Of a DNA stretch of 27,878 bases, positions 899 to 18,833 are shown one piece after another. The translations under genes were made by a program, and so were the position numbers. Source of the stretch: a virus. Numbering within the stretch: position 1 is the first letter of the stretch; each line of letters opens with the position of its first letter. The stretch spans positions 1 through 27,878 of the IMG/VR virus record IMGVR_UViG_3300027759_000349; one strand, given 5' to 3'. The notes below the pieces were generated by a model. The model searched no databases and was not told the origin of the DNA. It saw nothing but the letters and a program-made list of their open reading frames with translations.

Positions 899-930
899 AA
901 AAAAAGACGTTTTTATAACGTCTTTTTTTT
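899..930 (+). terminator. Rho-independent terminator
   Basis: An inverted repeat AAAAAGACGTT (901-911) / AACGTCTTTTT (917-927) forms an 11-bp stem with a 5-base loop and runs into a tract of eight T (923-930). It stands just after the stop of the 217-885 gene and separates the tail-fibre unit from the halogenase/oxygenase operon. Confidence 0.9.
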
Positions 931-947
931 GTCTCAAACTTTCACAG

Positions 948-955
948 TATAAATA
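948..955 (+). promoter_or_regulatory. T4-type late promoter TATAAATA for the 984-12230 operon
   Basis: A perfect TATAAATA lies between the terminator at 899-930 and the first halogenase, 28 bases before its ATG. An AAAGGAT ribosome-binding site (about 972-978) lies downstream in the predicted leader. No other clear promoter octamer appears on this strand until 18203, so this single promoter probably drives the 14-gene block. Confidence 0.75.
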
Positions 956-983: not shown

Positions 984-2612
984 ATGCAAGTTAAAAAAGT
1001 TACAATCATTGGTGGCGGCAGTTCGGGATGGATGACTGCGGCAGCACTATCAAAGTTATGTCCGCATCTCGAAATTACACTAGTTGAATCACCAAAAATT
1101 GGAACTGTCGGTGTAGGCGAAAGCACACTTGGACATATTAATAAATTCCTAAATATGCTAGGATTAAAAGATGAAGAGTGGATGCCAGCCTGTAACGCTA
1201 CCTATAAAAATTCAATTCGTTTTACAAATTTTAGAGAAAACGATGGAACATATTTTGAATATCCATTTTCGTCTGGCCTAGATATGACAGACAAGCCAAG
1301 CGGAACTATGGCTTGGTCAGAACTAGCTACTATGTTTCCAGATGAATACGGTCCAGAACAGTTTGCACAGATGTACGCTACTGGCAATACATACCTTGCA
1401 AAATACAACAAGCAATCAAGAAACAAAAATGGCCTTTTACGAAACTATGATTTCAAATGGGATACTGCCTATCATATGGACGCAGGTCTATTTGGAAAAT
1501 ATCTTAAAGATACAATCGCAATACCAAATGGTGTAAAACATATACAAGCAGAAGTACACTCGCATAGAAAAGATCATATTGGTAATATTACAGAAATTCT
1601 TCTAGATGACTTCACAACTATTTTAAAAGCCGACTTGTGGATTGACTGTACTGGCTTTAGGTCAGTACTGTTAGAACACTGGATGGGGCAACAATTTATG
1701 CCTTTCAGCAACTATCTTGCCAACGATCGTGCCTGGGCTTGTCGTATTCCTTACGAAGATCGTGAAAAAGAAATGCACAATGTTACTGACTGTCACGCAC
1801 TAGGCAACGGGTGGGTATGGAATATTCCATTATGGAATCGTATCGGTACTGGTTACTGTTACTCATCGCGTTTTACCACAGACGAAGATGCCAAGCGAGA
1901 ATTCCGTAATCATTTAGCAACTACCGGCAGCAAAGAGCGAGCTGAAGATGCCGATATGTTTAATATCCAAATACGTCACGGTGTTCGTAGACGTGCTTGG
2001 TCGTTCAATGTTGTAGGGGTTGGTTTGAGTTATGGGTTTGTCGAACCACTAGAGTCAACTGGCCTATTGACTACACACGAGAATATTGTTAAGCTAGTCG
2101 AAGCATTGAATCGACGTGGTGGATATATTACACGCAGCGAAAGAGAAGGATTTAACTTTGCTGTACAACACGATGTATATCGTTTTAGAGATTTCGTATC
2201 ACAACATTATGCTCTTTCACAGAGAACAGATACTCCGTACTGGCGCTGGTGTACCCAGATTAATGAGTATCAACCAGAAATGATGGGTGACTATATGTTG
2301 CAACAGGCACAATATCCTAATCTAATGGGAAATATTGGTGCTGGATTAGGATATCCTAGCGACTATGTAGGTAATATGTTTATTGCTGCAGGTATGGGTG
2401 TAAAAGCCGTGTCAACTAAAGAAGCTATATTTTATAACGGCTCTAGGCAAGAAATGAGTCGTAAGCAAGAAGAAATCGGGTATACTAAGCGTCGATTTGA
2501 AGAATATCGAGATTTTATAATCGAACACGTTAATACATTACCAAGTCATTATGAATTCCTAAGAGATGAAATTTACGGCGGCACAGATATCTATACCGAG
2601 ACGAAAGAATAA
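984..2612 (+). CDS. Flavin-dependent halogenase (tryptophan-halogenase family), copy A1
   Basis: This 542-aa protein is full length for the family (PF04820). It would use FADH2, O2 and halide to halogenate an unknown substrate. Visible motifs in order: the FAD-binding GGGSSGW at residues 10-16, GVGEST at 43-48, the catalytic lysine K75 in NATYKNSIRF (equivalent to K79 of PrnA), the halogenase signature WVWNIP at 277-282, and EPLESTG with E357 (equivalent to PrnA E346). All key residues are intact, so activity is plausible. The next gene is a close paralogue in tandem, starting after a 6-base gap. Phage halogenases are known (VirX1 of cyanophage Syn10). Substrate and halide preference cannot be read from sequence. 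No flavin reductase is visible in the window. Confidence 0.95.
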   Translation: MQVKKVTIIGGGSSGWMTAAALSKLCPHLEITLVESPKIGTVGVGESTLGHINKFLNMLGLKDEEWMPACNATYKNSIRFTNFRENDGTYFEYPFSSGLDMTDKPSGTMAWSELATMFPDEYGPEQFAQMYATGNTYLAKYNKQSRNKNGLLRNYDFKWDTAYHMDAGLFGKYLKDTIAIPNGVKHIQAEVHSHRKDHIGNITEILLDDFTTILKADLWIDCTGFRSVLLEHWMGQQFMPFSNYLANDRAWACRIPYEDREKEMHNVTDCHALGNGWVWNIPLWNRIGTGYCYSSRFTTDEDAKREFRNHLATTGSKERAEDADMFNIQIRHGVRRRAWSFNVVGVGLSYGFVEPLESTGLLTTHENIVKLVEALNRRGGYITRSEREGFNFAVQHDVYRFRDFVSQHYALSQRTDTPYWRWCTQINEYQPEMMGDYMLQQAQYPNLMGNIGAGLGYPSDYVGNMFIAAGMGVKAVSTKEAIFYNGSRQEMSRKQEEIGYTKRRFEEYRDFIIEHVNTLPSHYEFLRDEIYGGTDIYTETKE

Positions 2613-2618
2613 TACAAT

Positions 2619-4220
2619 ATGTGGGTTAAAAAAGTAACCATAGTTGGTGGTGGAAGTTCAGGTTGGATGTCTGCTGCTGCTCTAGCAAAGTTATGCCCGC
2701 ATATTGAAGTTACGGTTATCGAGTCTCCAGACATTAAAACCGTAGGAGTCGGCGAAAGCACGTTAGGGCATATCACTAAGTTTCTAACGTTGTTAGGATT
2801 AGAAGACAACGATTGGATGGCAGAATGTAATGCCACTTATAAAAACTCTATTAGATTTACAAATTTTAGAGAAAATGACGGATCTAGTTTTCAATACCCT
2901 TTTAGCCTAGGACTAGATATGACAGACAAGCCGGGAGGAATTAGTTCTTGGTCTGAGCTTGCAACTCTATATCCCGATGAATACGGTCCAGAATCATTTG
3001 CAGAATTCTTCGCCACTGCAAATACATTCCTAGCCAATAACAACAAGCAGACTAAAAATCTAAATGATAAACTAAGACATTTTAGCTTTAAATGGGATAC
3101 TGCATACCACGTTGACGCACAATTATTTGGTCAGTATCTTAAAGATAAGATTGCATTACCGCTCGGTGTAAAACATATTCACGGAGAGGTTACTGCATAC
3201 GCTAAAGATACAACTGGAAATATTTCTGAAGTCATTTTGCTTGATGGTACTCGATTAACATCAGATATATGGATCGACTGTACGGGTTTTAGATCACTAT
3301 TACTCGAGCAATGGATGGGATCTCCTTTTAAATCTTTTGACGATAATCTGTTTAATGACTGCGCCTGGGCCTGCAGACTACCATACGAAGATCGTGAAAA
3401 AGAAATGCACAACTACACAGACTGCCACGCTCTCGGAAATGGATGGGTATGGAATATTCCACTGTGGAATCGTATAGGCACTGGCTATGTATACTCATCT
3501 AAATTTACTTCTAAAGAAGCTGCCGCGAAAGAATTTAGAGCACATCTTGCTACAACAGGTAGCGCAGAACGTGCAGAACGTGCAGAATTATTTCACGTAG
3601 ATATGCGACACGGTCGCAGACACAGAGCGTGGGTTAAGAATGTTGTAGGCGTTGGTTTGAGTTATGGGTTTGTTGAACCATTAGAGTCGACCGGATTGCT
3701 AACAACACACGAAAACATTATTAAATTAGTTGAAATATTAAATCGCAGACGTGGTTGGGTAACACGTACAGAAAAAGAAGGATTTAATTTTGCTGTCGAA
3801 CAAGAAGTTTTAAAATTTAAAGATTTTATTTCGCAGCACTATGCCCTATCGATGCGTGACGATACGCCATATTGGAATTACTGTACTAATGAGCACGAGT
3901 ATTGTCCACAACTAATTAATGACTATGTACTACAGCAATCTCAATATACTAATCTACTTGGTAATATAACATCAAATCAAACATACCCAACCGGATTTAT
4001 TGCAGGCCTAATGATAGCTGCTGGTATGGGAGTTAAACCGATGTCTACTAAAGAAATGGTGTTAATCGGTGGTAAAATGAAACAGGACGAACTAGAGTAT
4101 ACTAAACGTGTATACGAAAAGTATAAGGAGTATGTTATTAACTACGTGAAAGATTTACCTACACACTATGAATTTCTAAAACAAGAAATTTACGGAGGAA
4201 AAGATGAGTACACTTTGTAA
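2619..4220 (+). CDS. Flavin-dependent halogenase, copy A2 (tandem paralogue)
   Basis: This 533-aa protein is collinear with the preceding halogenase almost from end to end, with the same MxVKKVTI(I/V)GGGSSGW start and an IYGG(T/K)DxYT-type C-terminus. It keeps GVGEST at 43-48, catalytic K75 in NATYKNSIRF, WVWNIP at about 276-281 and EPLESTG with E356, so it should be active. Patches of near-identical DNA remain, for example around 1752/3380 and 2019/3651, pointing to tandem duplication followed by divergence. The 3' end overlaps the next gene by 17 bases. That next gene's GGAGG ribosome-binding site (4194-4198) lies inside the codons for the C-terminal YGGKD. Confidence 0.95.
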   Translation: MWVKKVTIVGGGSSGWMSAAALAKLCPHIEVTVIESPDIKTVGVGESTLGHITKFLTLLGLEDNDWMAECNATYKNSIRFTNFRENDGSSFQYPFSLGLDMTDKPGGISSWSELATLYPDEYGPESFAEFFATANTFLANNNKQTKNLNDKLRHFSFKWDTAYHVDAQLFGQYLKDKIALPLGVKHIHGEVTAYAKDTTGNISEVILLDGTRLTSDIWIDCTGFRSLLLEQWMGSPFKSFDDNLFNDCAWACRLPYEDREKEMHNYTDCHALGNGWVWNIPLWNRIGTGYVYSSKFTSKEAAAKEFRAHLATTGSAERAERAELFHVDMRHGRRHRAWVKNVVGVGLSYGFVEPLESTGLLTTHENIIKLVEILNRRRGWVTRTEKEGFNFAVEQEVLKFKDFISQHYALSMRDDTPYWNYCTNEHEYCPQLINDYVLQQSQYTNLLGNITSNQTYPTGFIAGLMIAAGMGVKPMSTKEMVLIGGKMKQDELEYTKRVYEKYKEYVINYVKDLPTHYEFLKQEIYGGKDEYTL

Positions 4221-4989
4221 AAAACTTTTTGGTTGGATGCGAAAAGAAAAGCAACCAAGCATTAGATTTTATTCGTTAGAGTCTGGTGTTGAAAAATTAT
4301 ACCCTATAACAAAATCGTCATCAATCAAACGCAAATTTGCAGAGGATGAATCGCAGGTTGCAGTATCGTCTGCCAACTGTCCTGGTATTAATAAAGTAGT
4401 ATCAACTGGCTGGGTTATGTTGGCACCGGCCGATTTTATAATCACAACCACAGGCGACGGCATAGGATTTAATTGGGTCGAGCCATATCGATTTACAAAA
4501 TTTGCCGAAGGCAAAGACACTTATATTTCAAGCCATACTAAGGAACAAACAGAAATATTCTTAGATGACAACGTTACTTTAAAAACTGTAGTTAAGATCG
4601 AAACTCCTTGGCGAGTCGAAGCCGATGACGATGTGTTACTATTGCAATTACCAGTAACGTATAACAACGAAGCAAGATTTACAGCAGCAACGGGTATATT
4701 AGATCTACGATATGCGCATCTAATGAATGTGCAATTATTCTGGAAAGACCTAAATAGCAGTACCTTGATCAGGGCAGGAACCCCACTGTGTCAGTATATC
4801 CCATTATCTCGTAAAGCATTAAGCACATCTAGCTATAATGTAACTATAGATACAGCAAACAACACAGACATACAAAAAGAGCAAGAATTTAATTATGCTT
4901 CAAACTGCGTAATTTTATCGCACGACAGTCTAGCATCACGATTGACACGCACTTTAGCCGTGCTTAATAAGTATAAAAAGAGAGGATAA
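4204..4989 (+). CDS. Conserved phage protein of unknown function, 261 aa (DUF6065-like?), copy 1
   Basis: The start is set by GGAGG at 4194-4198, five bases before ATG. No enzyme motif is recognised with certainty. The protein has a conserved architecture shared with the 18830-19660 gene: a basic N-terminus, RFYSL at 21-25, a YP pair near 33, CPGI at 59-62, TGWVMLAPADF at 68-78, ETPWR at 133-137, LLLQLPV near 145-151, NEARFTAATGILD at 155-167, and RAGTPLCQYIPLSRK at 190-204. The two GW/AP and GTPL-Q-IP blocks faintly recall DUF6065, a family of unknown function. It sits between halogenases and oxygenases, which suggests a role in the same pathway, perhaps as substrate, scaffold or partner enzyme. 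That is inference. Confidence 0.8.
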   Translation: MSTLCKKLFGWMRKEKQPSIRFYSLESGVEKLYPITKSSSIKRKFAEDESQVAVSSANCPGINKVVSTGWVMLAPADFIITTTGDGIGFNWVEPYRFTKFAEGKDTYISSHTKEQTEIFLDDNVTLKTVVKIETPWRVEADDDVLLLQLPVTYNNEARFTAATGILDLRYAHLMNVQLFWKDLNSSTLIRAGTPLCQYIPLSRKALSTSSYNVTIDTANNTDIQKEQEFNYASNCVILSHDSLASRLTRTLAVLNKYKKRG

Positions 4990-4993
4990 TATT

Positions 4994-5248
4994 ATGGACT
5001 ACAAACAATCACTAATTGCTACTATGGCAAAAGTAACCGAAGAAAAAGCAAAATCAGAGACTGAACTAAAGCGTCTTGAAGAAGAATTCGCGAATGTAAA
5101 ATTAAACCCATACGGTATTACGTCGATTGATTTTTCTAAGCGTCAAGACATTTCACAGGACAATCTAAAGATGGAAGGAGTCCTAATGGGACTACAACTA
5201 GCTCTAGATACTTGGGAAGGGGCACAACCAGGTGTTGCAGCTGAGTAA
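4994..5248 (+). CDS. Small coiled-coil protein, 84 aa
   Basis: The ATG is preceded by GAGG at 4982-4985, inside the end of the previous gene. Residues 1-35 form a charged helix rich in Glu, Lys and Leu (EEKAKSETELKRLEEEF) that looks like a coiled coil. The C-terminal half has a second likely helix (NLKMEGVLMGLQLALDTWEGA). No known family is recognised. Such small helical proteins are common in T4-like phages, and its place between the unknown 261-aa gene and the oxygenases may be incidental. Its 3' end overlaps the next gene by 17 bases. Confidence 0.8.
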   Translation: MDYKQSLIATMAKVTEEKAKSETELKRLEEEFANVKLNPYGITSIDFSKRQDISQDNLKMEGVLMGLQLALDTWEGAQPGVAAE

Positions 5249-5816
5249 TGGAGCTATCCATTTATTTCCACCGCTGGTCTGGAAATTCAACTACGAATTT
5301 AATCTAGCTGAATTAGAACCAAAAATAGACCAGCTGTTTTCTCTCGTAGAAAAAAACTCCGAGTTAGAAAAAGGAGATGCAGTATCAACCGTAAGCGTAG
5401 ATCAGAGTCTTCAGCCACACGGGTGGAACGAACTAGCTAAGTTTCAAAACTGGTTAGGCGCTCAAATTGCTGATATACGACACGCTAATAATTTTATTGT
5501 CGGACATTCAGAAGTTACCCAGTCGTGGTGTAATCGACATCACTTCGGAGGGTACACCGAAGAGCATACACATAATTTTGGAACGTTTGTAGCCAGCTGT
5601 TATATTAAATGTCCACCAAACTCCGGAAACATTGAATTCAAAGATCCTCTAGAATATCACAAAAATTCGTATCCTATAATTCCAGAACTTGCTCTTTATA
5701 AAGAAGTTGAAGTACATACTAACGATGTACTAATTTTTCCAGGCTGGCTAAAACATCGTGTACAGGCCAATAGAACCAACGAGAAGCGCATTGTAATGAC
5801 ATTTAATATAAAATGA
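5232..5816 (+). CDS. Putative 2OG-Fe(II) oxygenase (PF13759/TIGR02466-like)
   Basis: The protein begins in the family style (GAIHLFPPLVW, 'F-P-T/P-x-V-W' start) and ends with an iron-site region. It has H112-T-H114 in EEHTHNFGTFVASCYI, then FPGWLKH with H175, and R186 before VMTFNI as the probable 2-oxoglutarate anchor. No in-frame ATG exists near the N-terminus. GTG at 5232, behind GGGAAGGGG at 5214-5222, is the most likely start. This makes a 17-base overlap with the upstream gene. It would hydroxylate an unknown protein or small-molecule substrate. Its stop overlaps the next start as ATGA, indicating translational coupling. Confidence 0.85.
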   Translation: MLQLSNGAIHLFPPLVWKFNYEFNLAELEPKIDQLFSLVEKNSELEKGDAVSTVSVDQSLQPHGWNELAKFQNWLGAQIADIRHANNFIVGHSEVTQSWCNRHHFGGYTEEHTHNFGTFVASCYIKCPPNSGNIEFKDPLEYHKNSYPIIPELALYKEVEVHTNDVLIFPGWLKHRVQANRTNEKRIVMTFNIK

Positions 5817-6619
5817 ATATCAACGATTTTAAATTTTGTTACCCAGATGCCAATACCTTTGATAAAATAATTAAGGTAAAAGCACTTAAGGATTGGAAAT
5901 ACGACTATGTCGAATTGTCTCCCGATGTTGGATATTGGGTTGCTGAAGCTCCGTTCTACGATGACGGCTTTGAATTATTTAAAAAATTAGTAGCATCTTT
6001 TCCTATTCAAAAAGATAACAATCATCCTGATAACTTTGACCCAAATCCCTTTGATACAATACACTTGCCTGAATGGGTACATAAAAATATTTGTTTCTTA
6101 TTAAGAGACTTTAATCATAAACATATATCTGCAGATGTTTTTGATCCACAGATACACGAGTGGGGCAATTTATATTTCAAGGAACGTGCTAAGCCGCTCG
6201 GCTGTTACCGCTTACCCCATATTGACTATGTACACGGACTAGTATCTAATCTATGGTTCACTGATCACAAGATTGCAGATAGCAGTACCAAGCTCTTTAA
6301 ATACCACGGCACTATGAAAAACGAAGTTTACGATTTTCAAATTGATACCACACACCCAATGAGAAAAGCCTGGGAAGAGATGGCAATATTGCCAACACGA
6401 TTACCAGCTTGGTCAAATTTAAGCAATGAAGAAATGGCAAAATGGGGATTTGAATTCTTAGGTGAATCACCGTGTACTGCTGGAACAATGACACTGTATA
6501 AAGCAAATGTATGCCACGTACCTTTTGTTTCGGAAAATGTAGATTTTCGTTGGAGTCACTCATTTGCATATAGTTATGAAACTCCACCGACTATGAGAAG
6601 CCTAGGAGGATTTTTCTAA
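5813..6619 (+). CDS. Probable Fe(II)-dependent oxygenase of divergent type, 268 aa
   Basis: This is longer than the neighbouring oxygenases and less typical. A candidate metal site is seen: H136-I-D138 in CYRLPHIDYVHGLVSNLWF, then H235 in TLYKANVCHVPFV, and R246 about ten residues later, followed by HSFAYSYE. This HxD...H...R order, with the strand pattern around it, fits a double-stranded beta-helix dioxygenase. The stretch between the two halves (about 150-225) is an unusual insertion with STKLFKYHG and a helical part. The gene overlaps the previous one as ATGA and abuts the next with no gap. Family assignment is by motif and context only. Confidence 0.6.
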   Translation: MNINDFKFCYPDANTFDKIIKVKALKDWKYDYVELSPDVGYWVAEAPFYDDGFELFKKLVASFPIQKDNNHPDNFDPNPFDTIHLPEWVHKNICFLLRDFNHKHISADVFDPQIHEWGNLYFKERAKPLGCYRLPHIDYVHGLVSNLWFTDHKIADSSTKLFKYHGTMKNEVYDFQIDTTHPMRKAWEEMAILPTRLPAWSNLSNEEMAKWGFEFLGESPCTAGTMTLYKANVCHVPFVSENVDFRWSHSFAYSYETPPTMRSLGGFF

Positions 6620-7243
6620 ATGAACTTTGAATTATACTTCCCTACTCCCGTGTGGTGGGAAGACACCAATATGCCAACAGACGCTATGTTGGCAAAATGC
6701 TACGAATTAAAAGAACAAGAACCGGTGGGTAGAAAACTCAGTAATGACGGCGGCTGGCAAAGTAAAGATTTCCGTCCAGGAACGTATGCCGAATTAAAAC
6801 CTTTAGAAGATAAAATATTAACTCAAGCTCGTAATTGTATTATAGATTTTGGATTTGATGAAAGATGGTGTTTTCCTGTAATAGAAAATTTATGGTTCAA
6901 TGTAAATTGTAAATTTAATTCTAATATGGTTCATATGCACGATGCATCTTTTGTATCTGGAGCATTTTATCTAAAAGCAAAACCAGGCCAAGGTAAAATT
7001 ACACTTTACAAAAATATGATGCAGGACTTTGCTACTATTTCTTTTGCTAGTATAGAAAAATTTACACCTATTAGCGCATCTGCTATTAGCTATGACCCTA
7101 TCACTAGCAGATTAATAATGTTTCCAGGATGGTTACCTCACGGAGTATCTGCTAATGAATTAGACGAAGACCGTGTTTCTATTTCTTTTAATATCAAGTT
7201 AATAAGGACAGACGATGAACGCTATCGGCCAGCGATTACTTAA
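6620..7243 (+). CDS. Putative 2OG-Fe(II) oxygenase (PF13759/TIGR02466-like)
   Basis: The 207-aa protein opens with the family start (ELYFPTPVWW). It has the iron-site segment VHMHDASFVSGAFYL (H105, H107), the distal FPGWLPHGVSAN (H174) and R185 in EDRVSISFNI as the expected 2-oxoglutarate ligand. This matches the pattern HxH...SGxxYL...FPxWxxHxVxxN...RxSISFN. An AGGAGG ribosome-binding site is present at 6604-6609. The C-terminus overlaps the next gene by 29 bases. The DNA just before the stop also encodes that gene's Shine-Dalgarno (AAGGAC) and start. Confidence 0.88.
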   Translation: MNFELYFPTPVWWEDTNMPTDAMLAKCYELKEQEPVGRKLSNDGGWQSKDFRPGTYAELKPLEDKILTQARNCIIDFGFDERWCFPVIENLWFNVNCKFNSNMVHMHDASFVSGAFYLKAKPGQGKITLYKNMMQDFATISFASIEKFTPISASAISYDPITSRLIMFPGWLPHGVSANELDEDRVSISFNIKLIRTDDERYRPAIT

Positions 7244-7940
7244 CGAAACAAATCTTTTTTACGAAGATAAACCTCATTACTTCAAGCAACTATTGCCGGA
7301 AGCTAGTGAAATGGTCACGTGGGATGATGTTGAATCGTGTATAAACAAACCAGAGTTATACACATTTGAGATGATCGGCAAAGATAATTTAAAAATTGAA
7401 ATTCCTACAAACAAAAAATCTTGGGTGTTCGGTAGACAAGTACAAGATAAAGGATTTATGTTTGATAGAATTAATAATGGTTTTGGATTTGTCATTATGG
7501 ATTATGCTTTTCACAGTCCTAAAACAATGAAATTGCTAGAAATTTTAGAAAACATATATATGATTAATGCTGCCATACACGTCTACGGAGGCCTAGAAGA
7601 TTCAAAGAGTTTTTGGATACACGAAGACTATCCATCTAATTTTATTGTTCAGGCACAGGGCAAAACAAGATGGAAAGTTTTCAATAACAGAATAAGCTCA
7701 ATGTATCGAACCGGCACAATGAATCATAAGCTGAAAGAAGAAGAACTTGATCTAGCTTTTGATGTTGTTTTAGAGCCAGGTGATGCTATCTACATCCCAT
7801 CAAGGGCCTATCACATAGCAGAACCAATGGGTAAGAGACTAAGTATGAGCATTCCGTGTTGGACTAAATTGCCCACAGACGATCCACGCGAGTCAAGTGA
7901 TAGGAATTGGTATAGGATAAAAAATGACAAAACTATTTAA
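7215..7940 (+). CDS. JmjC/cupin-like Fe(II)/2OG oxygenase (Cupin_4 / cupin_8 type)
   Basis: The ATG at 7215 follows AAGGAC within the preceding gene. The protein shows the JmjC/cupin hydroxylase signature: FWIHEDYPSNFIVQAQGKTRWKVF with H136-E-D138, then PGDAIYIPSRAYHIAEP with distal H200, followed by LSMSI. This order matches ribosomal-oxygenase-like (YcfD/MINA53) and FIH-like enzymes, which hydroxylate Arg, His or Asn side chains of proteins. It is the only JmjC-type member of the array, and the others are P4H-like or PF13759-like. The substrate is unknown. A protein target is suggested by family habit, not shown here. The 3' end overlaps the next gene by 17 bases. Confidence 0.82.
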   Translation: MNAIGQRLLNETNLFYEDKPHYFKQLLPEASEMVTWDDVESCINKPELYTFEMIGKDNLKIEIPTNKKSWVFGRQVQDKGFMFDRINNGFGFVIMDYAFHSPKTMKLLEILENIYMINAAIHVYGGLEDSKSFWIHEDYPSNFIVQAQGKTRWKVFNNRISSMYRTGTMNHKLKEEELDLAFDVVLEPGDAIYIPSRAYHIAEPMGKRLSMSIPCWTKLPTDDPRESSDRNWYRIKNDKTI

Positions 7941-11610: not shown

Positions 11611-12230
11611 AACAAGACTGTATCATACTTAAAAAAGCAGTCAGTGAAGAACTTTGTAAATTTCTAGCACTTGAATTTTCTATGATGGAAACAACCTGCC
11701 GACATTTGTATCCTGATGCAAATTTAGCAGATCTATGTGATAATACATTTGCTCGATACAGTCCCTTGATGATGGAGGCACTCAGTGTACATCTGCAGCC
11801 CATAGTTGAAGAAACGGTAGAGATGAAGTTGTATCCAGTTTACTCATATGCCAGAATATACTATGAAGGTTCTGAATTAAAAAAACATCACGATCGTGAA
11901 AGCTCGGAAGTTACTCTTTCTATCTGTTTAGAAAAAGAAGAAGACTGGCCTTTGTATGTAGAAAACGATAAGGGCGAAGTACACGCTATTAATCTAGATG
12001 TCGGCGATGTTGGAATTTACAGTGGCCGCAAGCACCAGCATTGGAGAGAACCACTCAAGGGAAAACGCCATATCCAGGCGTTTTTACAGTATGTAGATGT
12101 AGCAGGTGAAAGCGCCTGGCTAAAATATGATACTCGAGCCTGTTTAGGGTTGCCCTTTGAGTATGCTAGCCAGGCGGTTAGAAACGAGTTAGAACAGATG
12201 GCCGAAGCCAGAAAGCTGTTTAATCGTTAA
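11607..12230 (+). CDS. Putative 2OG-Fe(II) oxygenase, 207 aa (P4H-like)
   Basis: The core reads YARIYYEGSELKKHHDRESS with H94/H95 and D96 (H-x-D), followed by EVTLSICLE, WPLYVEN, a DVGDVGIYSGRKHQHWRE turn with distal H143 or H145, and KRHIQAFLQYVD with R154. This is a standard prolyl-4-hydroxylase-like fold order. It is the last gene of the plus-strand operon and its TAA interleaves with the TAA of the convergent 64-aa gene over TTAA at 12227-12230. No terminator follows. Confidence 0.9.
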   Translation: MKQDCIILKKAVSEELCKFLALEFSMMETTCRHLYPDANLADLCDNTFARYSPLMMEALSVHLQPIVEETVEMKLYPVYSYARIYYEGSELKKHHDRESSEVTLSICLEKEEDWPLYVENDKGEVHAINLDVGDVGIYSGRKHQHWREPLKGKRHIQAFLQYVDVAGESAWLKYDTRACLGLPFEYASQAVRNELEQMAEARKLFNR

Positions 12231-12421: not shown

Positions 12422-12425
12422 TTTT

Positions 12426-12447
12426 GTCTCCTTAAACAGTATTTATG
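12426..12447 (-). promoter_or_regulatory. T4-type late promoter CATAAATA plus ribosome-binding site for the 64-aa gene
   Basis: On the minus strand CATAAATA (12440-12447) overlaps the stop codon of the upstream halogenase (12443-12445). AAGGAGAC at 12426-12433 lies four bases before the ATG. The octamer fits the NATAAATA late consensus, so the small gene can be expressed apart from the halogenase operon above it. Confidence 0.6.
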
Positions 12448-14017
12448 CTGTCCGCTGAATCCACTCTTCTATGGATAAAAACGGTTCAACCAATTCTTTA
12501 TACTTGCTATTATTAATATTTAGTACATCTCGTCCTACAGGCAGCAAATTATCGTATACTTCTGCCATCTTACTAGTATCAACTACATCTAATGCCTGTA
12601 AAACCATCATCCACGCAGACGCAGAGTAGGCCTTTGGCCAGGGTTCTGGAATAGTACACCGGAAATAATCGTGCCATTCGTCTAGTTTAAACTGTAACGA
12701 TGGAGGAATACGGAATTTATCCTCTCCGTGACTGCGCCAAAATTCTGTATCTCTACGGTTTCCTCGGTAATGCAGTGCTAGAAAATCACGAAAATCTTCC
12801 ATTAAAAACCACATACGATCGTTCATACGTTGTACTGTCTCAGGCGAATGCGAGTCTGGCCGATGTGGATCCCAGTAGTCCTGTATCGCATACAGATTTT
12901 CCACAATTAATGCAATGCCATTGGCTTCGAGCGGCTCAAGAAAGCCGCCGCTGAGTCCTACTGCAAATACGTTATTCTTCCAGATATTTTTCATCATACC
13001 TGGAGTAAATTGGAAATTTGCGATCGGAGTAATTTTTTTATTAAATCTTTCTTCAGCTTCTTGTACAGCCTGATCTAGTGTAATATGATCTGGATCGTAG
13101 ATATATCCGTTACCAGACCGATGTCGAAGATTGATATTCCAGCTCCATCCATATTTCATCGCTGTAGCATTTGTTGTAACAGAGTAGCAGGGATCAGACT
13201 CCCACCAAGCAACAACTGCCCTGGCTGGAAAGTAGTCAGTCATATCTACCAATGGTTCATTTAGAGTTTTTCCTAGCAGCAGTCTTGCAAAGCCACTGCA
13301 ATCAAAAAACCAATCAGCTGTCTCAACACGATCACCGTCGAGGTGAATAGCGGTGATATCTCCGCGCTCGTTAAGATCAGCAGTCTGGAATGTTCCTTCG
13401 ACTAGTCGAATACCTCGCTTAATTCCCAGCTCTTTGAAATATGCCGCCCCTGCTCTGCTTTCAAAATGCCACATTGGACTACACGGTAGTTTCTGTAAAT
13501 TTTCATCGCAGCCAAAAGGAACACGCTGCTGATTAATAAATTCGGTTGAATAGAATGCTTTTGATAGCGGTATTTTATTTCCTAATATTGTTTTAAGAAA
13601 AGTATCTTTATTTTTTTCAGCCTGCATTATTGAGCTCATTTGCCCAAGAGATAATACTGCGTCTGGCATAGATCCTGCGAAGTAATCGGTCCACCCGTTT
13701 AGCCAAGGAGCATAGTCTGTTTGAAGAGCGTGTATAAATTCAGTACCTACACCATTCCAGTCAGTAAACTTGCCACCTAGTTTAGGAGTGGCATTTACAC
13801 GTTTGACGAATTCGTCGTTATCAATCTTTAGATGTTTTAAGAAAGTAACAAACGTAGTGCTACCACTTTCGCCTGCGATGATTGGGGGTTTAGAAGGATC
13901 CTCGACCACAGTTACTTCGCAGCGTGGCCAGTTACGCTGTACAAATAGTGCTGTTAGCCAGCCGGCGCTGCCGCCACCTAATACAATAACTTTAGAATTT
14001 AATAATGACTTTTTCAT
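12443..14017 (-). CDS. Flavin-dependent halogenase, copy C (divergent clade)
   Basis: This 524-aa protein is full length for PF04820. GGGSAGW at 14-20 binds FAD, AGESGS at 48-53 replaces the usual GVGEST, and the catalytic lysine is K79 in NATPKLGGKF. The halogenase signature is WSWNIN (291-296), where the usual Pro is Asn, and the EPLE glutamate is E364 (EPLEAN instead of EPLEST). The catalytic Lys and Glu remain, so it may still be active with another substrate. The start overlaps the upstream halogenase's 3' end by 26 bases and has AAAGAGAG as ribosome-binding site. It is clearly different from the other two on this strand and was probably acquired or split off earlier. Confidence 0.93.
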   Translation of the reverse strand: MKKSLLNSKVIVLGGGSAGWLTALFVQRNWPRCEVTVVEDPSKPPIIAGESGSTTFVTFLKHLKIDNDEFVKRVNATPKLGGKFTDWNGVGTEFIHALQTDYAPWLNGWTDYFAGSMPDAVLSLGQMSSIMQAEKNKDTFLKTILGNKIPLSKAFYSTEFINQQRVPFGCDENLQKLPCSPMWHFESRAGAAYFKELGIKRGIRLVEGTFQTADLNERGDITAIHLDGDRVETADWFFDCSGFARLLLGKTLNEPLVDMTDYFPARAVVAWWESDPCYSVTTNATAMKYGWSWNINLRHRSGNGYIYDPDHITLDQAVQEAEERFNKKITPIANFQFTPGMMKNIWKNNVFAVGLSGGFLEPLEANGIALIVENLYAIQDYWDPHRPDSHSPETVQRMNDRMWFLMEDFRDFLALHYRGNRRDTEFWRSHGEDKFRIPPSLQFKLDEWHDYFRCTIPEPWPKAYSASAWMMVLQALDVVDTSKMAEVYDNLLPVGRDVLNINNSKYKELVEPFLSIEEWIQRTA

Positions 14018-15497
14018 ATCTCTCTTTAACTTTTTCTAGGCATTCTCGATGCGGCCAACTTTCTACATTTCTAGTGTAGTGTTCATTCTCATCAAAAATA
14101 CTTTGATTAATTTCCTTATATTTGCTCAATTGATTTTCATACTTATTTTTAATATATGATGCATCAAACATCCTAAGCCCGTGCATCACCTGCGTATAAC
14201 TTAGGTGTGTAAACAACTGCATAGGATGATTAAAATAGTGTGGGTGTGGAGTATGACGTTTAAAGTACTCTAGATATTCTTTATTAAAATCGGTCACTTC
14301 GATATTATTCTTACACCACTGCCAAAACTCAGTGTCTGTGCGTTCAGTAAAATAATGCAGCTGAATAAAGTCAACTATGTTATCAGACAGTATGGCCATA
14401 TCGTGATTATATCTTTTAGCAGCTATGTCGTATCCTTTTTCATAAAAGAATATAGATGGCATCAGCATAAAAATCTGCTGAATAGTTGTGCCAATACTAC
14501 TGGCTTCTAATGGCTCTACAAAAATGCCACTCAGACCAACACTGACGCAATTCTTAATCCAATAGCGATCCACGTGACCGGCACCAAATTTTACTTTACG
14601 ACCAATTTTTAATTCTTCTTCAATACCAAGATTATTTTTGTAATGCTGGCTAACTTCATCATAGGCTTTGGTTTCGTCAATAAAACTGTCGCAGAATACA
14701 TAGCCGTTGCCGAATCTTTCCTGTGTAGGTATACGCCATACCCAGCCACTGCTTAGGGCAGTTGATTCGGTGTAAGAAGGAATTTCTTCTTTGTAGCCTG
14801 TAGGAAATGCCAGTGCTGAATTCATAGGTAACTGATTAGTTCTATCTATCCACTTGGCTCCTAGCTTACTGGAGATCACTCTACGGAAGCCAGAGCAGTC
14901 AACATAGAAATCATAAGCGTGTTTTCTATTGTCTTTATCTAGTAATTCTTTTACATCGCCTTGCTCATCTAAGATAACATCATTGATTTCAGTATCAACG
15001 ATAACAACATTTCTTTCTCTACAGAGTCTATGCAGATAGGCATTTAATTTAAAAGTATCAAAGTGATATTGTGCAAATATATCGTGTAAGGGTTCTACGT
15101 GACGACCCTGCATACTTAGTAACCAGGGTGTATCTAATGGATCCCAGTCGTTGGCAATCATATGCAACCAGGTAAATGCCAGACCATTTTCTTTGCTGTG
15201 GCCACCGTATTGCTCTATCAGGCTATGATAGTAACTTGTGCCATCACCGTGCCAATCGGTAAACTTAATGCCCATTTTATAGGTAGCACCAGTTTCTCTA
15301 ATTAGGTCAGGTACAGTAACATCTATATGTTGAATGAACTTTTTCCAATGTTCTGTTGAGCCTTCTCCGACACCTATAATCCCCAACTGACTAGACTCAA
15401 TCATTGTGATTTTAAGATCTGGATAGGCTTTACGCATCATCAGAGCTGTGATGCAGCCGCTGGTTCCTCCACCCAAAATACATAATGAATTTATCAT
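13992..15497 (-). CDS. Flavin-dependent halogenase, copy B1
   Basis: This 501-aa protein has GGGTSGC at 9-15, GVGEGST at 42-48, catalytic K74 in GATYKMGIKFTDW, an intact WVWRIP signature at 252-257, and FVEPLEASS with E331. It belongs to the 'GVGEGSTEHW' subgroup with the next upstream gene, with which it shares long collinear stretches (WHGDGTSYYHS, LPMNSA, QVMHGLRMFD). DNA around 14169 and 15669 is nearly identical between the two, showing tandem duplication. It overlaps the upstream halogenase as ATGA. Of the three minus-strand copies it has the most canonical signature motif. Confidence 0.94.
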   Translation of the reverse strand: MINSLCILGGGTSGCITALMMRKAYPDLKITMIESSQLGIIGVGEGSTEHWKKFIQHIDVTVPDLIRETGATYKMGIKFTDWHGDGTSYYHSLIEQYGGHSKENGLAFTWLHMIANDWDPLDTPWLLSMQGRHVEPLHDIFAQYHFDTFKLNAYLHRLCRERNVVIVDTEINDVILDEQGDVKELLDKDNRKHAYDFYVDCSGFRRVISSKLGAKWIDRTNQLPMNSALAFPTGYKEEIPSYTESTALSSGWVWRIPTQERFGNGYVFCDSFIDETKAYDEVSQHYKNNLGIEEELKIGRKVKFGAGHVDRYWIKNCVSVGLSGIFVEPLEASSIGTTIQQIFMLMPSIFFYEKGYDIAAKRYNHDMAILSDNIVDFIQLHYFTERTDTEFWQWCKNNIEVTDFNKEYLEYFKRHTPHPHYFNHPMQLFTHLSYTQVMHGLRMFDASYIKNKYENQLSKYKEINQSIFDENEHYTRNVESWPHRECLEKVKERYEKVIIKF

Positions 15498-16981
15498 AAT
15501 TTATAAACCTTATCTGTGTAACGATCCTTGACAATATTTACTGCTTCTCTGCTAGTATAGAACGTTGCCGTTTTTTCTGTAGGCACTGTTGAGAAATGAT
15601 GTTTCGCTGCTTCTGTAAGATGATTGAAATGTAAATCATATTGCTGTTTGATTTTTTCTTGATCAAACATCCTAAGCCCGTGCATCACCTGTACCCAATT
15701 TAACATATCATAGATGCAGTAGTTAGTGGTCGGTAACGCTAACTGATTGATAAAGTTAGTTTTAAACATTTCTAAGTGTTCAGCATTAAATTCAGTCATC
15801 TTTAGATTATGTTTACACCAACGCCAAAACTCACTGTCCGTGCGTTCGGTAAAATAATGTAGCTGAATAAAATCTAAAATGTTAGTCATTACTTCGTCAA
15901 AGATCTTATTGTAATGCTTTGTAGTCACAGTATCATTGCGGTGCCAGGTCGATAATGCTGTTGCTAAAACACGAGCCTGTTGTACGGTAGTCGATATGCT
16001 ACTGGCTTCTAGGGGTTCGACAAAGCTGCTACTCAGGCCAACGCTGACACAGTTCTTGATCCAAAACCGATCTATCTTTCCTGATACGAAACTAACTTTG
16101 CGAGCAATTTTTATAGGATCAGGAAACTCTTTTTGTATTTCGGCAATCGCTTGATCTTCTGAAATAAATTGATCACTGAATACATAGCCATTGCCAAAGC
16201 GATCCTGTACAGGACTGCGCCAGTGCCAGCCACTGCTCAATGCTTTAGCCAGTGTGTACGGAGGAATAGTTTCTTGATAAGGGCTTGGAAATGCAATAGC
16301 CGAATTCATTGGCAGATACTCTGACCAATCAACCCAGGTAGATCCTAGCCGAGATGATATAACTCTACGGAATCCACTGCTGTCAACGAAGAAGTCTGCG
16401 GCATACAGATTGTTTTCTGTGTCAACGATTGATTCAACAAAGCCTTCGCTGTCTATAATAGCATCAACAATCTCAGCTTCGACAACAGTAATATCACGTT
16501 CGCTACATTTACGTAGGAAAAAGGCATTTAGTTTTTCACTGTCAAAGTGGAACTGAAAGAAATTATCAGCTAGCGGCTCAGTATGTAGACCCTTCATTGC
16601 AAGATCCCAGTGCATTGATTCAGTGCCCACTCCATCACGAATCATCGACATCATTGTATATGGATTACCAGTATATGAATCTAGCACTGCCATATATTCG
16701 GGTATGCTGTGATAGTAACTTGTGCCATCACCGTGCCAGTTTTCAAATTTAATACCAGCTTTGAGTGTGGCGCCACATTCTTTAATCATTTCCCAATTTT
16801 GAATATTGACTGCCTCGGCAAAAATCTTCCAATGTTCTGTACTTCCTTCCCCGACCCCAATTGTTCCTATTTTTGTAGATTTAACAACTGTGATTTTTAA
16901 GTGAGGATTAGATGTTCGCAGATATAATGCAACCATCAGACCGGCATTGCCGCCACCGAGTACAGTTAGTGTTTTAATCAT
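15494..16981 (-). CDS. Flavin-dependent halogenase, copy B2, with altered signature motif
   Basis: This 495-aa paralogue of copy B1 has GGGNAGL at 9-15, GVGEGST at 42-48, catalytic K74 in GATLKAGIKFENW, and FVEPLEASS with E325. Two changes stand out. The signature is WHWRSP (252-257) instead of WxWxIP. The acidic residue that normally closes the second Rossmann strand (VES/VIES) is Lys here (TVVKS, K34), which could weaken FAD ribose binding. It may be an altered-specificity enzyme or a decaying copy, though the frame is intact. It is coupled by ATGA overlaps to both neighbours. Confidence 0.93.
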   Translation of the reverse strand: MIKTLTVLGGGNAGLMVALYLRTSNPHLKITVVKSTKIGTIGVGEGSTEHWKIFAEAVNIQNWEMIKECGATLKAGIKFENWHGDGTSYYHSIPEYMAVLDSYTGNPYTMMSMIRDGVGTESMHWDLAMKGLHTEPLADNFFQFHFDSEKLNAFFLRKCSERDITVVEAEIVDAIIDSEGFVESIVDTENNLYAADFFVDSSGFRRVISSRLGSTWVDWSEYLPMNSAIAFPSPYQETIPPYTLAKALSSGWHWRSPVQDRFGNGYVFSDQFISEDQAIAEIQKEFPDPIKIARKVSFVSGKIDRFWIKNCVSVGLSSSFVEPLEASSISTTVQQARVLATALSTWHRNDTVTTKHYNKIFDEVMTNILDFIQLHYFTERTDSEFWRWCKHNLKMTEFNAEHLEMFKTNFINQLALPTTNYCIYDMLNWVQVMHGLRMFDQEKIKQQYDLHFNHLTEAAKHHFSTVPTEKTATFYTSREAVNIVKDRYTDKVYKL

Positions 16982-17586
16982 CTTTCTAACCTTATAGTGG
17001 CTTTAGAATCTGTAGCCAACACGTGATTGACTTTACCTGTGGGCAGAGTATTGAAGCTGATAACAAATCTATCAAGCGATGAGTAGTGCGTGGGGCTGCT
17101 GTGAAACATCCAACTTGGGAATATAATTAATTTTCCAGGAACTGCATCTGAAGTAATCGAAGAATTATAGTCGTGTCGCAACACTTCAAGTTGAGCAAAC
17201 GCTCTCTGAGTGACTGGATCTTCAAACAGAGTAGGTGAGCCTTCGGTGGCGTAGTATATTCCGCTGTAATAGCTCATCGAATGTCTGTGGTAGTTTTGAT
17301 ACATATCTTCTTTGCCCACAGAAACATTAAACCAGCTATTGGTAATTTCAAACTGATCGCAATCGTATTTTAGTGTTGTACGTACTTCCTCTAAGCATTG
17401 ATTGATCCAATCAAATAATTCTTTAAAATCTGTATTAAGGTGTAGGTCAGCTAACACACTAATGTTGGTATTTTTCTTAAGAGGTACGTCGGTCATTCGT
17501 TCCATCTTACCAACTAGCTCGTAATTATCAATCTTGGGATTGTTGAATACAAACGCTTCAACAGGAAATAGATTTAGAATTTCCAT
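16978..17586 (-). CDS. Putative 2OG-Fe(II) oxygenase (PF13759/TIGR02466-like), 202 aa
   Basis: The protein begins with MEILNLFPVEAFVF (family-style N-terminus). It carries YHRHSMSYYSGIYYA (H100, H102), LFEDP, then IIFPSWMFHSSP (H162), and R173 in DRFVISFNTLPTGK. This matches HxHxxxxxSGxYY...FPSWxxHxxxP...RxxISFN. It is translationally coupled to its neighbours (TAATG upstream, ATGA downstream), placing it in one operon with three halogenases. Confidence 0.9.
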   Translation of the reverse strand: MEILNLFPVEAFVFNNPKIDNYELVGKMERMTDVPLKKNTNISVLADLHLNTDFKELFDWINQCLEEVRTTLKYDCDQFEITNSWFNVSVGKEDMYQNYHRHSMSYYSGIYYATEGSPTLFEDPVTQRAFAQLEVLRHDYNSSITSDAVPGKLIIFPSWMFHSSPTHYSSLDRFVISFNTLPTGKVNHVLATDSKATIRLER

Positions 17587-18164
17587 TAAAACTCTACCCA
17601 GCCTGTTATTAGATATTTTTCACCGCTAATCGGAGGATTGCCACGATGTGTATGGGTAAACCCAGCAGGCCAAATAGTTAATGTTCCCTGCGTTGCAGGT
17701 ATACGAACACTTTGGTATAACCATTCTGTCTCTCCACCTAACTCAACAGTATTTAGATATACTGCCCAGGCACAGATACGACTGGATCTTTCAATAGCAT
17801 CTGACTCAAAATGCCATTGATGGTAACCTTCTCCCGGTAATGTTTTTTGTATCTTCATTGATCGGATAGTGTGTTTACCTGCTTCGTGCATAACGCTGTA
17901 ATGGTCGATATATTCGGTCCAGCAGTTCCAAAAGCGTTCCATAAAGAACCCTAAAAATCCTGCTCCTGGACCAAACCTCAAAGATTTTTCGTCTAGCACA
18001 TAGACCCCAGTATCGCTTTTATGATGTGCAAGTCCATCTTTGATAGTGCGTCTAGTATAGCTAAGATTTAATTGATCTAGATTATTGAAGTGATCGATAA
18101 TCTGTTGACATTCACTCTCATTGAGGATGCCTTCCCAAATGCCGATATCTTTTTCTATTTTCAT
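17586..18164 (-). CDS. Prolyl-4-hydroxylase-like 2OG-Fe(II) oxygenase, 192 aa
   Basis: ATG at 18164 is chosen because the homologous part begins at MKIEKDIGIWEG. A GTG start 51 bases upstream would lie within the candidate promoter. The core is GYHQWHFES with H118-F-E120 (HxE in place of HxD), RICAWAVYLN, GGETEWLYQ, and IWPAGFTHTHRGNPP with distal H171 or H173, followed by K183 in EKYLITGW as the probable 2-oxoglutarate anchor. This is the well-known phage/bacterial P4H-like pattern (WHxE...GGETEF...IWPAGFTHTHRG). It is the first gene of the minus-strand halogenase operon. Confidence 0.92.
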   Translation of the reverse strand: MKIEKDIGIWEGILNESECQQIIDHFNNLDQLNLSYTRRTIKDGLAHHKSDTGVYVLDEKSLRFGPGAGFLGFFMERFWNCWTEYIDHYSVMHEAGKHTIRSMKIQKTLPGEGYHQWHFESDAIERSSRICAWAVYLNTVELGGETEWLYQSVRIPATQGTLTIWPAGFTHTHRGNPPISGEKYLITGWVEF

Positions 18165-18195
18165 ATTCGCTGATGCGCCCTCGTAAACGATACTA

Positions 18196-18210
18196 TATAT
18201 ATCATAAATT
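18196..18210. promoter_or_regulatory. Candidate divergent late promoters, back to back
   Basis: In the 75-base gap between divergent genes, the minus strand carries GATATATA (18196-18203) and the plus strand CATAAATT (18203-18210). Each differs from NATAAATA at one base, and they share position 18203. Each lies 29-31 bases from its ATG (18164 minus, 18240 plus), as at the perfect promoter at 948. Neither is a perfect match and the region is AT-rich, so this is tentative. Confidence 0.35.
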
Positions 18211-18239
18211 AACACTGTATATTATTATCCTGGAACCCT

Positions 18240-18833
18240 ATGACAACTGAAAAAACTCTCTGGCCTTTATTTTCAAAACCAATCTTTAAAACATCTCTAG
18301 ATGTTTCGAGTCTTGATCTCAGCAAAGTGGAATGGACTGAAAACTATAACAACTGGATCAGCAAATCACAAAATATTCTAGAGCAGCCAGAGTTTGAAAA
18401 GATTTCTCAATTGGCATTTGACGGCGTATGCGAATATTTCTACGGTATTATGCGAGCCAGTCAAAAAGCAGAAATTGCTATCACAGAATCCTGGCTAAAC
18501 AAAACTGAAAAAGGGCAGACTCATCATAGGCACTATCATCCTAACAGTATTTTTTCAGCGATTGTCTATCTAGATTCCGAAGGTGAATCGGGCCAGACAA
18601 AGTTTATTACCAGCGAATATCAAACCATAGAATACGATATCGACGAGTCAAATCTTTATAATTCTAAGAGCTGGAGCATTACACCTAAAGTTGGCGATAT
18701 GTTAATATTTCCGTCTAGTGTAGAACATATGGTTACTGAATATCAAGGTAACACTCCGCGGGTTACACTGAGCTTTAATACATTCTTACGTGGACAGATT
18801 AACTCACTGCCGCTAACTAGACTGAGTATTTAA
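18240..18833 (+). CDS. Putative 2OG-Fe(II) oxygenase (PF13759-like), 197 aa
   Basis: The protein has family-type start WPLFSKPIFKT (8-18), then THHRHYHPNSIFSAIVYL (H95-H100, with H98-x-H100 next to PNS), MLIFPSSVEHMV (H163), and R174 in PRVTLSFNTFLRG. The HxHxHPNSxxS form is the variant I know from T4-like marine phages, often labelled prolyl 4-hydroxylase. It stands alone on the plus strand between two minus-strand units, divergent from the P4H-like gene and convergent with the unknown-family gene, with interleaved TAA stops at 18830-18833. Confidence 0.9.
   Translation: MTTEKTLWPLFSKPIFKTSLDVSSLDLSKVEWTENYNNWISKSQNILEQPEFEKISQLAFDGVCEYFYGIMRASQKAEIAITESWLNKTEKGQTHHRHYHPNSIFSAIVYLDSEGESGQTKFITSEYQTIEYDIDESNLYNSKSWSITPKVGDMLIFPSSVEHMVTEYQGNTPRVTLSFNTFLRGQINSLPLTRLSI

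Follow-up and report, generated by a model that had tools for sequence, protein, structure and literature searches.

Genes and signals of the locus

The window (the whole stretch of DNA analysed, 27,878 nt) corresponds to positions 1-27,878 of IMG/VR record IMGVR_UViG_3300027759_000349, one strand, and its source is a marine T4-like phage. Its genes and signals are listed in Table 1. The large structural protein is nearest to that of S-CAM1, whereas in one close relative the capsid protein comes closest to those of jumbo T4-like phages. A cyanobacterial host was considered and was not established: psbA was found in 0 of 13 large contigs carrying the module or a halogenase.

Table 1. Genes and signals of the window, with the evidence for each assignment
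Feature	Position	Strand	Evidence
Gly/His-rich tail-tip protein, C-terminal end (gene cut by contig edge)	2..196	+	tail-fibre family PHROG 863, E 7.6e-11
T4-type late promoter TATAAATA before ORF1	204..211	+	exact match, of which the window has just two
ORF1, probable tail-tip assembly chaperone	217..885	+	position and size as Pam3 gp25
Terminator-like hairpin and T run between ORF1 and hal1	903..930	+	read directly from sequence
T4-type late promoter TATAAATA before hal1	948..955	+	the other exact match
hal1, VirX1-type flavin-dependent halogenase	984..2612	+	PF04820 E 6.6e-107; VirX1 6qgm E 1.9e-202
hal2, VirX1-type halogenase	2619..4220	+	PF04820; 67% identity with hal1
U1, dUTPase-fold protein (PHROG 7084)	4204..4989	+	AlphaFold pLDDT 92.6; Foldseek dUTPases E 2e-4
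SM, small conserved operon protein	4994..5248	+	same place kept in relatives
ox1, 2OG oxygenase-like (PF13759)	5232..5816	+	E 1.5e-15; HTH112-H175-R186
ox2, divergent oxygenase-like (PHROG 3234/1644)	5813..6619	+	invariant H136/D138/H235, R246 0.99; no Pfam match
ox3, 2OG oxygenase-like (PF13759)	6620..7243	+	E 1.1e-18
ox4, JmjC_2-type, kin to histidyl/arginyl protein hydroxylases	7215..7940	+	PF08007 E 2.6e-15; NO66 E 1.7e-6
ox5, oxygenase-like (PHROG 274)	7924..8517	+	E 2.7e-30; H118/D120/H173/R184
ox6, DUF6445/PHROG 1644 oxygenase-like	8495..9217	+	E 6.1e-16; H126/D128/H216/R230
ox7, DUF6445/PHROG 1644 oxygenase-like	9214..9831	+	E 1.4e-16; H92/D94/H181/R195
ox8, 2OG oxygenase-like (PF13759)	9828..10439	+	E 5.9e-11
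ox9, oxygenase-like (PHROG 274, weak PF13640)	10436..11044	+	E 1.1e-43; H111/D113/H179/R190
ox10, oxygenase-like (PHROG 2696)	11005..11610	+	E 3e-40; invariant H114/H116/H156/R168
ox11, oxygenase-like (PHROG 2954)	11607..12230	+	E 1.4e-48; H94/D96/H145
hal3, second-subtype halogenase	12443..14017	-	E 1.7e-89; nearest solved entries PDB 6frl and RebH
hal4, halogenase	13992..15497	-	E 2.0e-104
hal5, halogenase	15494..16981	-	E 1.4e-103; WHWRS replaces WxWxI
ox12, 2OG oxygenase-like (PF13759)	16978..17586	-	E 2.5e-12
ox13, 2OG oxygenase (PF13640), prolyl-hydroxylase-like	17586..18215	-	E 8e-8; prolyl 4-hydroxylases E 0.0029
ox14, 2OG oxygenase-like (PF13759)	18240..18833	+	E 5.9e-23
U2, another dUTPase-fold protein, accompanying hal3-hal5	18830..19660	-	PHROG 7084 E 2.1e-47
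Flanking tail-fibre gene, late-type GATAAATA upstream	19749..20750	+	PHROG 454/6722
Flanking large virion structural protein	20772..26663	+	PHROG 5838 E 2.4e-235; S-CAM1 homologue ~52% identical

The five full-length halogenases reported by the first-pass annotation were recovered where it had placed them in a profile search of the window ORFs (PF04820, E 1.4e-109 to 1.7e-89), with no internal stops. All five keep the GxGxxG motif, the glutamates of FxEPLE and a catalytic Lys, which is K75 in hal1, and WxWxI is kept in all except hal5; the complete WxWxIP is present in hal1, hal2 and hal4, and hal3 reads WSWNI. The same annotation had counted thirteen Fe/2OG oxygenases, ten of them in 5232-12230. 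The oxygenase-like genes number fourteen, with eleven in that interval plus those at 16978, 17586 and 18240. The HxD/E or HxH...H...R/K patterns that it had read hold throughout, the metal triad and the 2OG-binding Arg/Lys being present in 14/14. The metal motif is HxH in the PF13759 genes and ox10; in ox12 the residues, read by eye, are H100/H102/H162/R173.

When compared with Pfam, 5/5 halogenases matched, and seven of the 14 oxygenase-like genes passed the curated cut-off of a named 2OG/JmjC model (PF13759, PF13640 or JmjC_2). Two more (ox6 and ox7) passed that of DUF6445, and the genes at 5813, 7924, 10436, 11005 and 11607 scored under the cut-offs. These five match PHROG 3234, 274, 2696 and 2954 (E 5e-21 to 1e-48), and in their family alignments HxD/HxH...H is invariant with an Arg downstream. 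The profile scores exclude chance matches. For two enzymes the solved relatives are informative, and both look like protein hydroxylases, histidyl for ox4 and prolyl for ox13. ox4 has the domain and HxD...H motif of the JmjC_2 hydroxylases NO66, MINA and YcfD, although it is a phage-encoded protein of 241 aa and the known JmjC_2 enzymes target ribosomal proteins.

The two copies of a 261-276-aa family noted earlier are real (40.5% identity, PHROG 7084). By eye, motif-III and C-terminal-like dUTPase stretches are present in U and the phosphate-binding RSS stretch is absent; no dUTPase match was found in Pfam or NCBIfam. A halogenase lies within 2 kb of the PHROG 7084 gene in 77/80 loci. A bacterial origin of the family was sought by a pattern search for close relatives in 84,980 genomes, and only two relatives were observed: one, within a 188-kb 'Nonlabens' contig, matches cyanophage P-TIM40, and the other is in a Prochlorococcus single-cell contig. 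No bacterial counterpart was therefore seen in that search.

Tip proteins and enzymes in relatives

Since the window contains just the last 64 aa of the tip, its fold was tested on the complete homologue of a closely related contig (L012:5133-5990, the third of three tandem copies). This protein matches PF21722, and its Gly-rich domain has the Pam3/Bxb1 fold (Foldseek E 6e-8 to the Pam3 fibre, and a match to the Bxb1 tail tip). Tip genes occur in 1-3 tandem copies with a variable N-terminal part and a Gly/His-rich C-terminal domain; His makes up 5.7% of the C-terminal 170 aa vs. 0.4% elsewhere, and H199, H222, Y169 and F181 are invariant in 60 sequences. To our knowledge, no modification enzymes accompany the T-even/S16 gp38 tail-fibre adhesins. 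Like the tip, these proteins have a Gly-rich distal adhesin of ~260 aa (see also PMC9608196). By sequence, the tip gave no match to S16 gp38.

Cyanophage Pam3 fibre gp24 and its chaperone gp25 (PDB 7YPX) have in common with the tip the fold, the Gly-rich distal domain and a small gene directly 3'. The Gly-rich domain of Pam3 is the proposed receptor-binding part (PMC9608196); no partner halogenase or oxygenase was found in the Pam3 report. ORF1 starts a median of 22 nt 3' of the tip gene, and its position and size, like those of gp25, make it a probable tail-tip assembly chaperone. It gave no match in Pfam and PDB profile searches, and as a gp25 homologue by sequence it was rejected, the few hits being short matches to designed SAKe proteins. 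Its tail bears a conserved Trp motif, WxRYPGW.

Hundreds of viral contigs, and cultured cyanophages such as Syn9/Syn10, carry directly 3' of 1-3 tandem tip genes an operon of ORF1, halogenase(s), the dUTPase-fold protein, the small protein and 3-11 oxygenases. The gene set had been put forward as a candidate for a previously undescribed locus; however, a shorter version is already present in Syn9, Syn10, S-CREM1, S-RIM44 and P-TIM40, and at least three halogenases with at least five oxygenases were found in 40 of 80 viral loci chosen by the PHROG 7084 family. In the Syn9/Syn10 operon, the source of the characterised halogenase VirX1 (PDB 6QGM), to which hal1 and hal2 are homologous, the order is the same: tip genes, ORF1, halogenases, PHROG 7084, a small gene and up to 10 oxygenase genes. 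The window goes beyond it by three additional halogenases and a second U-oxygenase set. The literature found treats these genes as single auxiliary metabolic genes, and assigns the halogenases and 2OG oxygenases to DNA repair, nitrogen signalling, host metabolism or antibiotics. The coupling of the operon to tip proteins, and a role there, seems to be new, no description having been found in the literature.

Among ORF1 loci with a sufficiently long flank, the tip protein was present in 107/108 (84/85 distinct sequences). When the tip protein was taken as the start, ORF1 and a halogenase were present in 63/63 tip loci whose 3' flank was 3 kb or longer. Twenty cultured-phage records contain the tip protein, the same 20 carry ORF1, and 20/20 are among the halogenase records. 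In five loci of alternative layout, the ORF1/tip block lies on the opposite strand, facing the enzymes. From gp13 onward, the S-RIM44 isolates Np_42_0711 and W2_10_0709 share 95-98% identity, but tip proteins and enzymes are exchanged between them as a single block: where one has three tip genes, ORF1, two halogenases, U and six oxygenases, the other carries a single oxygenase, a small protein and a tip candidate that differs. ATAAATA was observed 5' of ORF1 in 52/95 relatives. It also precedes the first halogenase in 32/81, usually at 31-40 nt from the start, with 0 on the opposite strand in both cases. These data show that tip genes, ORF1, halogenases, U and oxygenases make up a conserved unit that is inherited together and has late promoters of the T4 type. 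Distances for the tip, the halogenase, ORF1 and U correlate in Mantel tests (0.81-0.87), which speaks to co-inheritance only, and the correlation of tip His count with oxygenase-family number (rho 0.44) was judged uninformative because it is confounded by shared ancestry.

Candidate targets of the enzymes

In nearly every relative examined the enzymes co-travel with Gly/His-rich tips, so they most likely decorate the tip that grips the host. We consider it rather probable that this late-expressed operon hydroxylates and halogenates the phage's own receptor-binding tail-tip proteins. ORF1 would chaperone the nascent tip trimer; the oxygenases would hydroxylate His, Asn or Pro side chains in its Gly-rich loops; and the halogenases, with reduced flavin that would have to be supplied by the host, would put halogen on conserved aromatics, e.g., Tyr169 or His199/222. 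Further subtypes may come from the second set (U2, ox12-14, hal3-5), most of which lies on the minus strand, and the altered tip might then bind or resist its marine surroundings differently. In favour of this reading we counted the two-way linkage, the isolate swap, the late promoters, the tip fold, the likeness of ox4 and ox13 to protein hydroxylases, the invariant and His-enriched residues of the tip, and the open active site of VirX1, which takes bulky substrates (PMC8407142), the only relative for which halogenation of an aromatic substrate has been demonstrated. Counted against it were the near absence of Trp from the Gly-rich domain of the tip and the absence of tip proteins from the S-SZBM1 virion proteomics list (PMC9146016); usable tryptic peptides cover only 41-53% of the S-SZBM1 tips. 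Also counted against were the in vitro substrates of VirX1, which are small aromatics, and the consideration that a host-range cassette transferred as a whole can produce linkage even if the tip is not the substrate.

The enzymes could instead be cargo of a hypervariable tail-fibre/neck interval, carried with host-range genes and acting elsewhere, on host metabolism, the 2OG level or nucleic acid. Published proposals of DNA repair or 2OG/nitrogen control (PMC3037559) fit such a role, the same interval in S-SSM7 holds a halogenase, oxygenases and sugar-nucleotide genes, and variable metaviromic islands around marine-phage tail fibres include Fe(II) oxygenases, classed under host recognition, albeit with no mechanism, halogenase or linked tip family (PMC3909814). 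Random carriage, however, would not yield the two-way coupling (63/63 and 84/85) with one tip family, which persists where the ORF1/tip block is inverted, and late promoters are ill-suited to early takeover functions; we regard this explanation as unlikely. A different late protein, such as the long tail fibre, another virion protein or a host surface protein (e.g., for excluding other phages), is an improbable target: the long fibre genes likewise lie 5' of the module, and in the S-RIM44 swap the long fibre diverges most toward its distal end, but the near-exceptionless co-occurrence belongs to the tip family, the equivalent count having been made for the tip only.

The usual PF04820 substrates are free tryptophan or pathway intermediates, and cyanophage PrnA has been suggested to serve antibiotic protection (PMC2984593, PMC9964418). 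On this view the product would be a halogenated small molecule, e.g., derived from tryptophan, that acts as a protectant or as a signal from the infected cell. We give this little credence: the oxygenases number as many as 14, no enzyme committed to a precursor accompanies them, and the pairing with a virion protein is strict. Among the window ORFs the NRPS/PKS/RiPP hallmarks (scaffold-forming synthase, carrier protein and clear precursor peptide) were absent, the ORF1 tail being a weak candidate only. That tail as the substrate, with ORF1 as leader, appears very improbable. Its Trp does not vary across 14 aligned sequences, W..Y.GW occurs in 52/98 ORF1 sequences and the motif adjoins tryptophan-type halogenases, yet in other halogenase operons it decays to barely more than Trp, and ORF1 sits at the expected position of a fibre chaperone. 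The dedicated modification system envisaged in the first-pass annotation gains support, and the evidence favours modification of the tail-tip protein over a biosynthetic cluster, because neither a carrier protein nor a scaffold synthase was seen, and what the enzymes are linked to is a virion protein.

Implications for marine T4-like phages

Among the common genes of marine T4-like phages that still lack an explanation are halogenases and 2OG oxygenases. A broader proposal, which we advance tentatively and hold slightly less probable than its negation, is that they form an oxidative assembly line producing non-canonical residues (halogenated Tyr/His/Trp and hydroxylated His/Asn/Pro) in receptor-binding tips, exchanged as a cassette, with the tip as the natural substrate of VirX1. 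With tip and enzymes passed on together, host range would evolve chemically as well as by sequence. The two-way coupling and the natural isolate swap pose a question that mass spectrometry can decide on cultured phages (Syn9, Syn10, S-RIM44). If the proposal is true, (i) VirX1 would gain a natural substrate; (ii) halogenation and hydroxylation would join the routes by which viruses alter a host-recognition protein; and (iii) the operons would offer a toolbox of protein-tailoring enzymes.

Halogenases and oxygenases of the window

The first-pass annotation of this virus fragment (27,878 bases, 39.6% G+C) had listed five halogenases and thirteen oxygenases. The halogenases were borne out by Pfam profile searches, which returned five intact PF04820 genes (E 1.4e-109 to 1.7e-89): hal1 and hal2, 67% identical to each other, on the plus strand and hal3–hal5 on the minus strand. 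Each of the five retains its FAD motif, its catalytic lysine and the EPLE glutamates, and hal1 matched VirX1, the cyanophage Syn10 halogenase, with E 1.9e-202. Small oxygenase-like genes are also present, but they number fourteen. Seven score above the cut-off of a named Pfam model of the 2OG or JmjC type, and two above that of DUF6445; the other five, below every Pfam cut-off, are members of PHROG 3234, 274, 2696 and 2954. In alignments with 29–155 relatives, each oxygenase group keeps an HxD or HxH...H triad and a basic residue 8–14 positions downstream. The PF13759 genes and ox10 have HxH instead of HxD, so that, judged from these residues, ordinary 2OG chemistry is likely there, not certain.

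PHROG 274 is labelled ‘DNA endonuclease V’, 2954/3531 ‘ferrochelatase’ and 1644 ‘minor coat protein’. Proteins so labelled, in the window (see table) and in Syn9 (gp46, gp51–gp54), have the oxygenase metal triad, and these names look like annotation errors carried into RefSeq phage records. Two small genes past the structural genes (90 and 123 aa) matched no PHROG family.

Coordinates of features in the window
Feature	Position	Strand
End of last tip gene	2-196	
Late-promoter core before ORF1	204	
ORF1	217-885	
Late-promoter core before hal1	948	
U1	4204-4989	
ox4	7215-7940	
Triad protein with PHROG label	7924-8517	
Triad protein with PHROG label	8495-9831 (ox6 and ox7)	
Triad protein with PHROG label	10436-11044	
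ox10	11005-11610	
Triad protein with PHROG label	11607-12230	
ox13	17586-18215	
ox14	18240-18833	
U2	18830-19660	
Two small genes	27120-27763	minus

A common module of T4-like phages

Megablast of the window against 50,697 phage records gave no match; at the protein level, cultured cyanophages have the same operon. Syn9 carries tip genes (for a Gly/His-rich tail-tip protein), ORF1, two halogenases, U (a protein of predicted dUTPase-like fold), a small gene and roughly ten genes for oxygenases, and versions, some without U, are found in S-CREM1, S-RIM44, Sf-FP1, P-TIM40, S-WAM1, P-RSM6, S-SZBM1 and Sf-FR1. Relatives of U are encoded by 428 stretches of viral contigs. Among the best 80 of these, a halogenase lies within 2 kb of U in 77, and 40 carry three or more halogenases together with five or more oxygenases. 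The gene set, proposed earlier as previously undescribed, is thus a common module, of which the window carries one of the larger versions.

A 188,235-base contig filed as Nonlabens xiamenensis (NZ_RMVE01000006.1) has the P-TIM40 module and is nearly as long as the P-TIM40 genome, and therefore looks like a contaminating phage genome. A 278-kb contig with a close relative of the window module (IMGVR_UViG_3300047510_001118) is without psbA, and its capsid protein is nearest to those of the jumbo T4-like phages Sinorhizobium Phosso and Vibrio 2.275.O (69–71% identity); the cassette thus appears to move between separate lineages of T4-like phages. Loci L143, L144, L147 and L148 have three or four tandem U genes in the midst of oxygenase and halogenase genes; no Gly-rich tip lies within the stretches covered.

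Coupling of tail-tip and enzyme genes

At every locus read out, one to three tandem genes upstream of ORF1 encode proteins of 250–285 aa whose N-terminal part varies and whose Gly/His-rich C-terminal domain (Gly_rich_2 in Pfam) is conserved. The window starts within the last of these genes; a contig 92% identical to it (L012) carries all three. In an AlphaFold model (pLDDT 83.8), the tip fold resembles the fibre of cyanophage Pam3 (E 6e-8) and the tail tip of Bxb1. In Pam3, receptor binding is proposed for the Gly-rich domain at the tip, and folding of the fibre depends on a small chaperone, gp25 (PMC9608196). ORF1 starts a median of 22 nt 3′ of the tip gene, in the right place for a candidate gp25-like chaperone; sequence searches gave no confirming match. 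The tip protein is rich in His, and across 60 sequences H199, H222, Y169 and F181 do not vary.

One tip copy in Syn9 (gp39) reads into an unrelated C-terminal frame and one in S-CREM1 (SCREM1_66) ends early (loci L007:8672-9847 and L006:9832-10508); the adjacent copy is intact in each. Laboratory adaptation, Gly-repeat variation or sequencing error could account for these apparently broken copies. The interval between fibre and gp13 in S-SSM7 (locus L192:3270-18848) contains genes for tandem Gly/His/Cys-rich tip-like proteins, followed by those for a halogenase, oxygenases and a carbamoyltransferase and by sugar-nucleotide genes; it may represent a glycosylating variant of the system.

Tip and enzymes are coupled in both directions. 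A tip protein was present in 107 of 108 ORF1 loci whose left flank spans 4 kb or more (84/85 with duplicates removed). Starting from the tip protein, ORF1 and a halogenase were found in every one of the 63 loci that extend 3 kb or more downstream; 42 of the 72 newly fetched loci share no ORF1 sequence with the forward set. Near relatives are over-represented, since each scan gives the best 80 matches. Among cultured phages, tip protein and ORF1 occur in the same 20 records, all of them halogenase records. The pairing is kept even in five loci of other layout, with the ORF1/tip block on the opposite strand.

The S-RIM44 isolates Np_42_0711 and W2_10_0709 are 95–98% identical from gp13 on and 65–70% in the long fibre. 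In the interval bounded by the long fibre and gp13, Np_42_0711 encodes three tip proteins along with ORF1, two halogenases, U and six oxygenases; W2_10_0709 has there another kind of tip candidate (294 aa), a protein of 121 aa and a single PF13759 oxygenase. Tip and enzymes have been swapped as one block.

Two exact copies of the T4 late-promoter core TATAAATA are present in the window, one just ahead of ORF1 and the other just ahead of hal1; the number is not above chance (3.3 expected on both strands), but the placement is. In relatives, ATAAATA lies upstream of ORF1 in 52 of 95 cases and, for the first halogenase, in 32 of 81 (none on the other strand), and before at most 10% of the remaining operon genes. 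Late-promoter support is weaker for the minus-strand set.

Predicted chemistry and role

Informative solved relatives were found for two window oxygenases: ox4 matched the histidyl hydroxylase NO66 (E 1.7e-6) and ox13, weakly, prolyl 4-hydroxylases (E 0.003). For ox14, matches were to uncharacterised proteins only. VirX1 accepts bulky aromatics and has an unusually open active site (PMC8407142). U has a predicted dUTPase-like fold (best matches, TM to target 0.65–0.71, E 2e-4), with Cys59 invariant and His111 nearly so.

In S-SZBM1 virions, the proteins of genes 51–54, just upstream, were detected, and the tips (48, 49), the halogenase (46) and the oxygenases were undetected (PMC9146016). Absence of the enzymes is consistent with their remaining in the cell. 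Modification, scarcity or a shortage of tryptic peptides could each explain the missing tips; their absence therefore counts neither for nor against modification.

The gene families are already known, and the published accounts we found treat them as auxiliary metabolic genes; one paper classes the Fe(II) oxygenases of tail-fibre islands as host-recognition functions and offers no mechanism (PMC3909814). We found no description of the tip–enzyme coupling, although an earlier report is possible, most subscription papers and preprints lying outside the search. The data establish the gene content, motif conservation, gene order, coupling in both directions, exchange as a block and promoter placement, with the folds known from prediction. 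We propose that the tip would be the substrate of the enzymes, that particular tip residues would be modified, and that this modification may alter adsorption.
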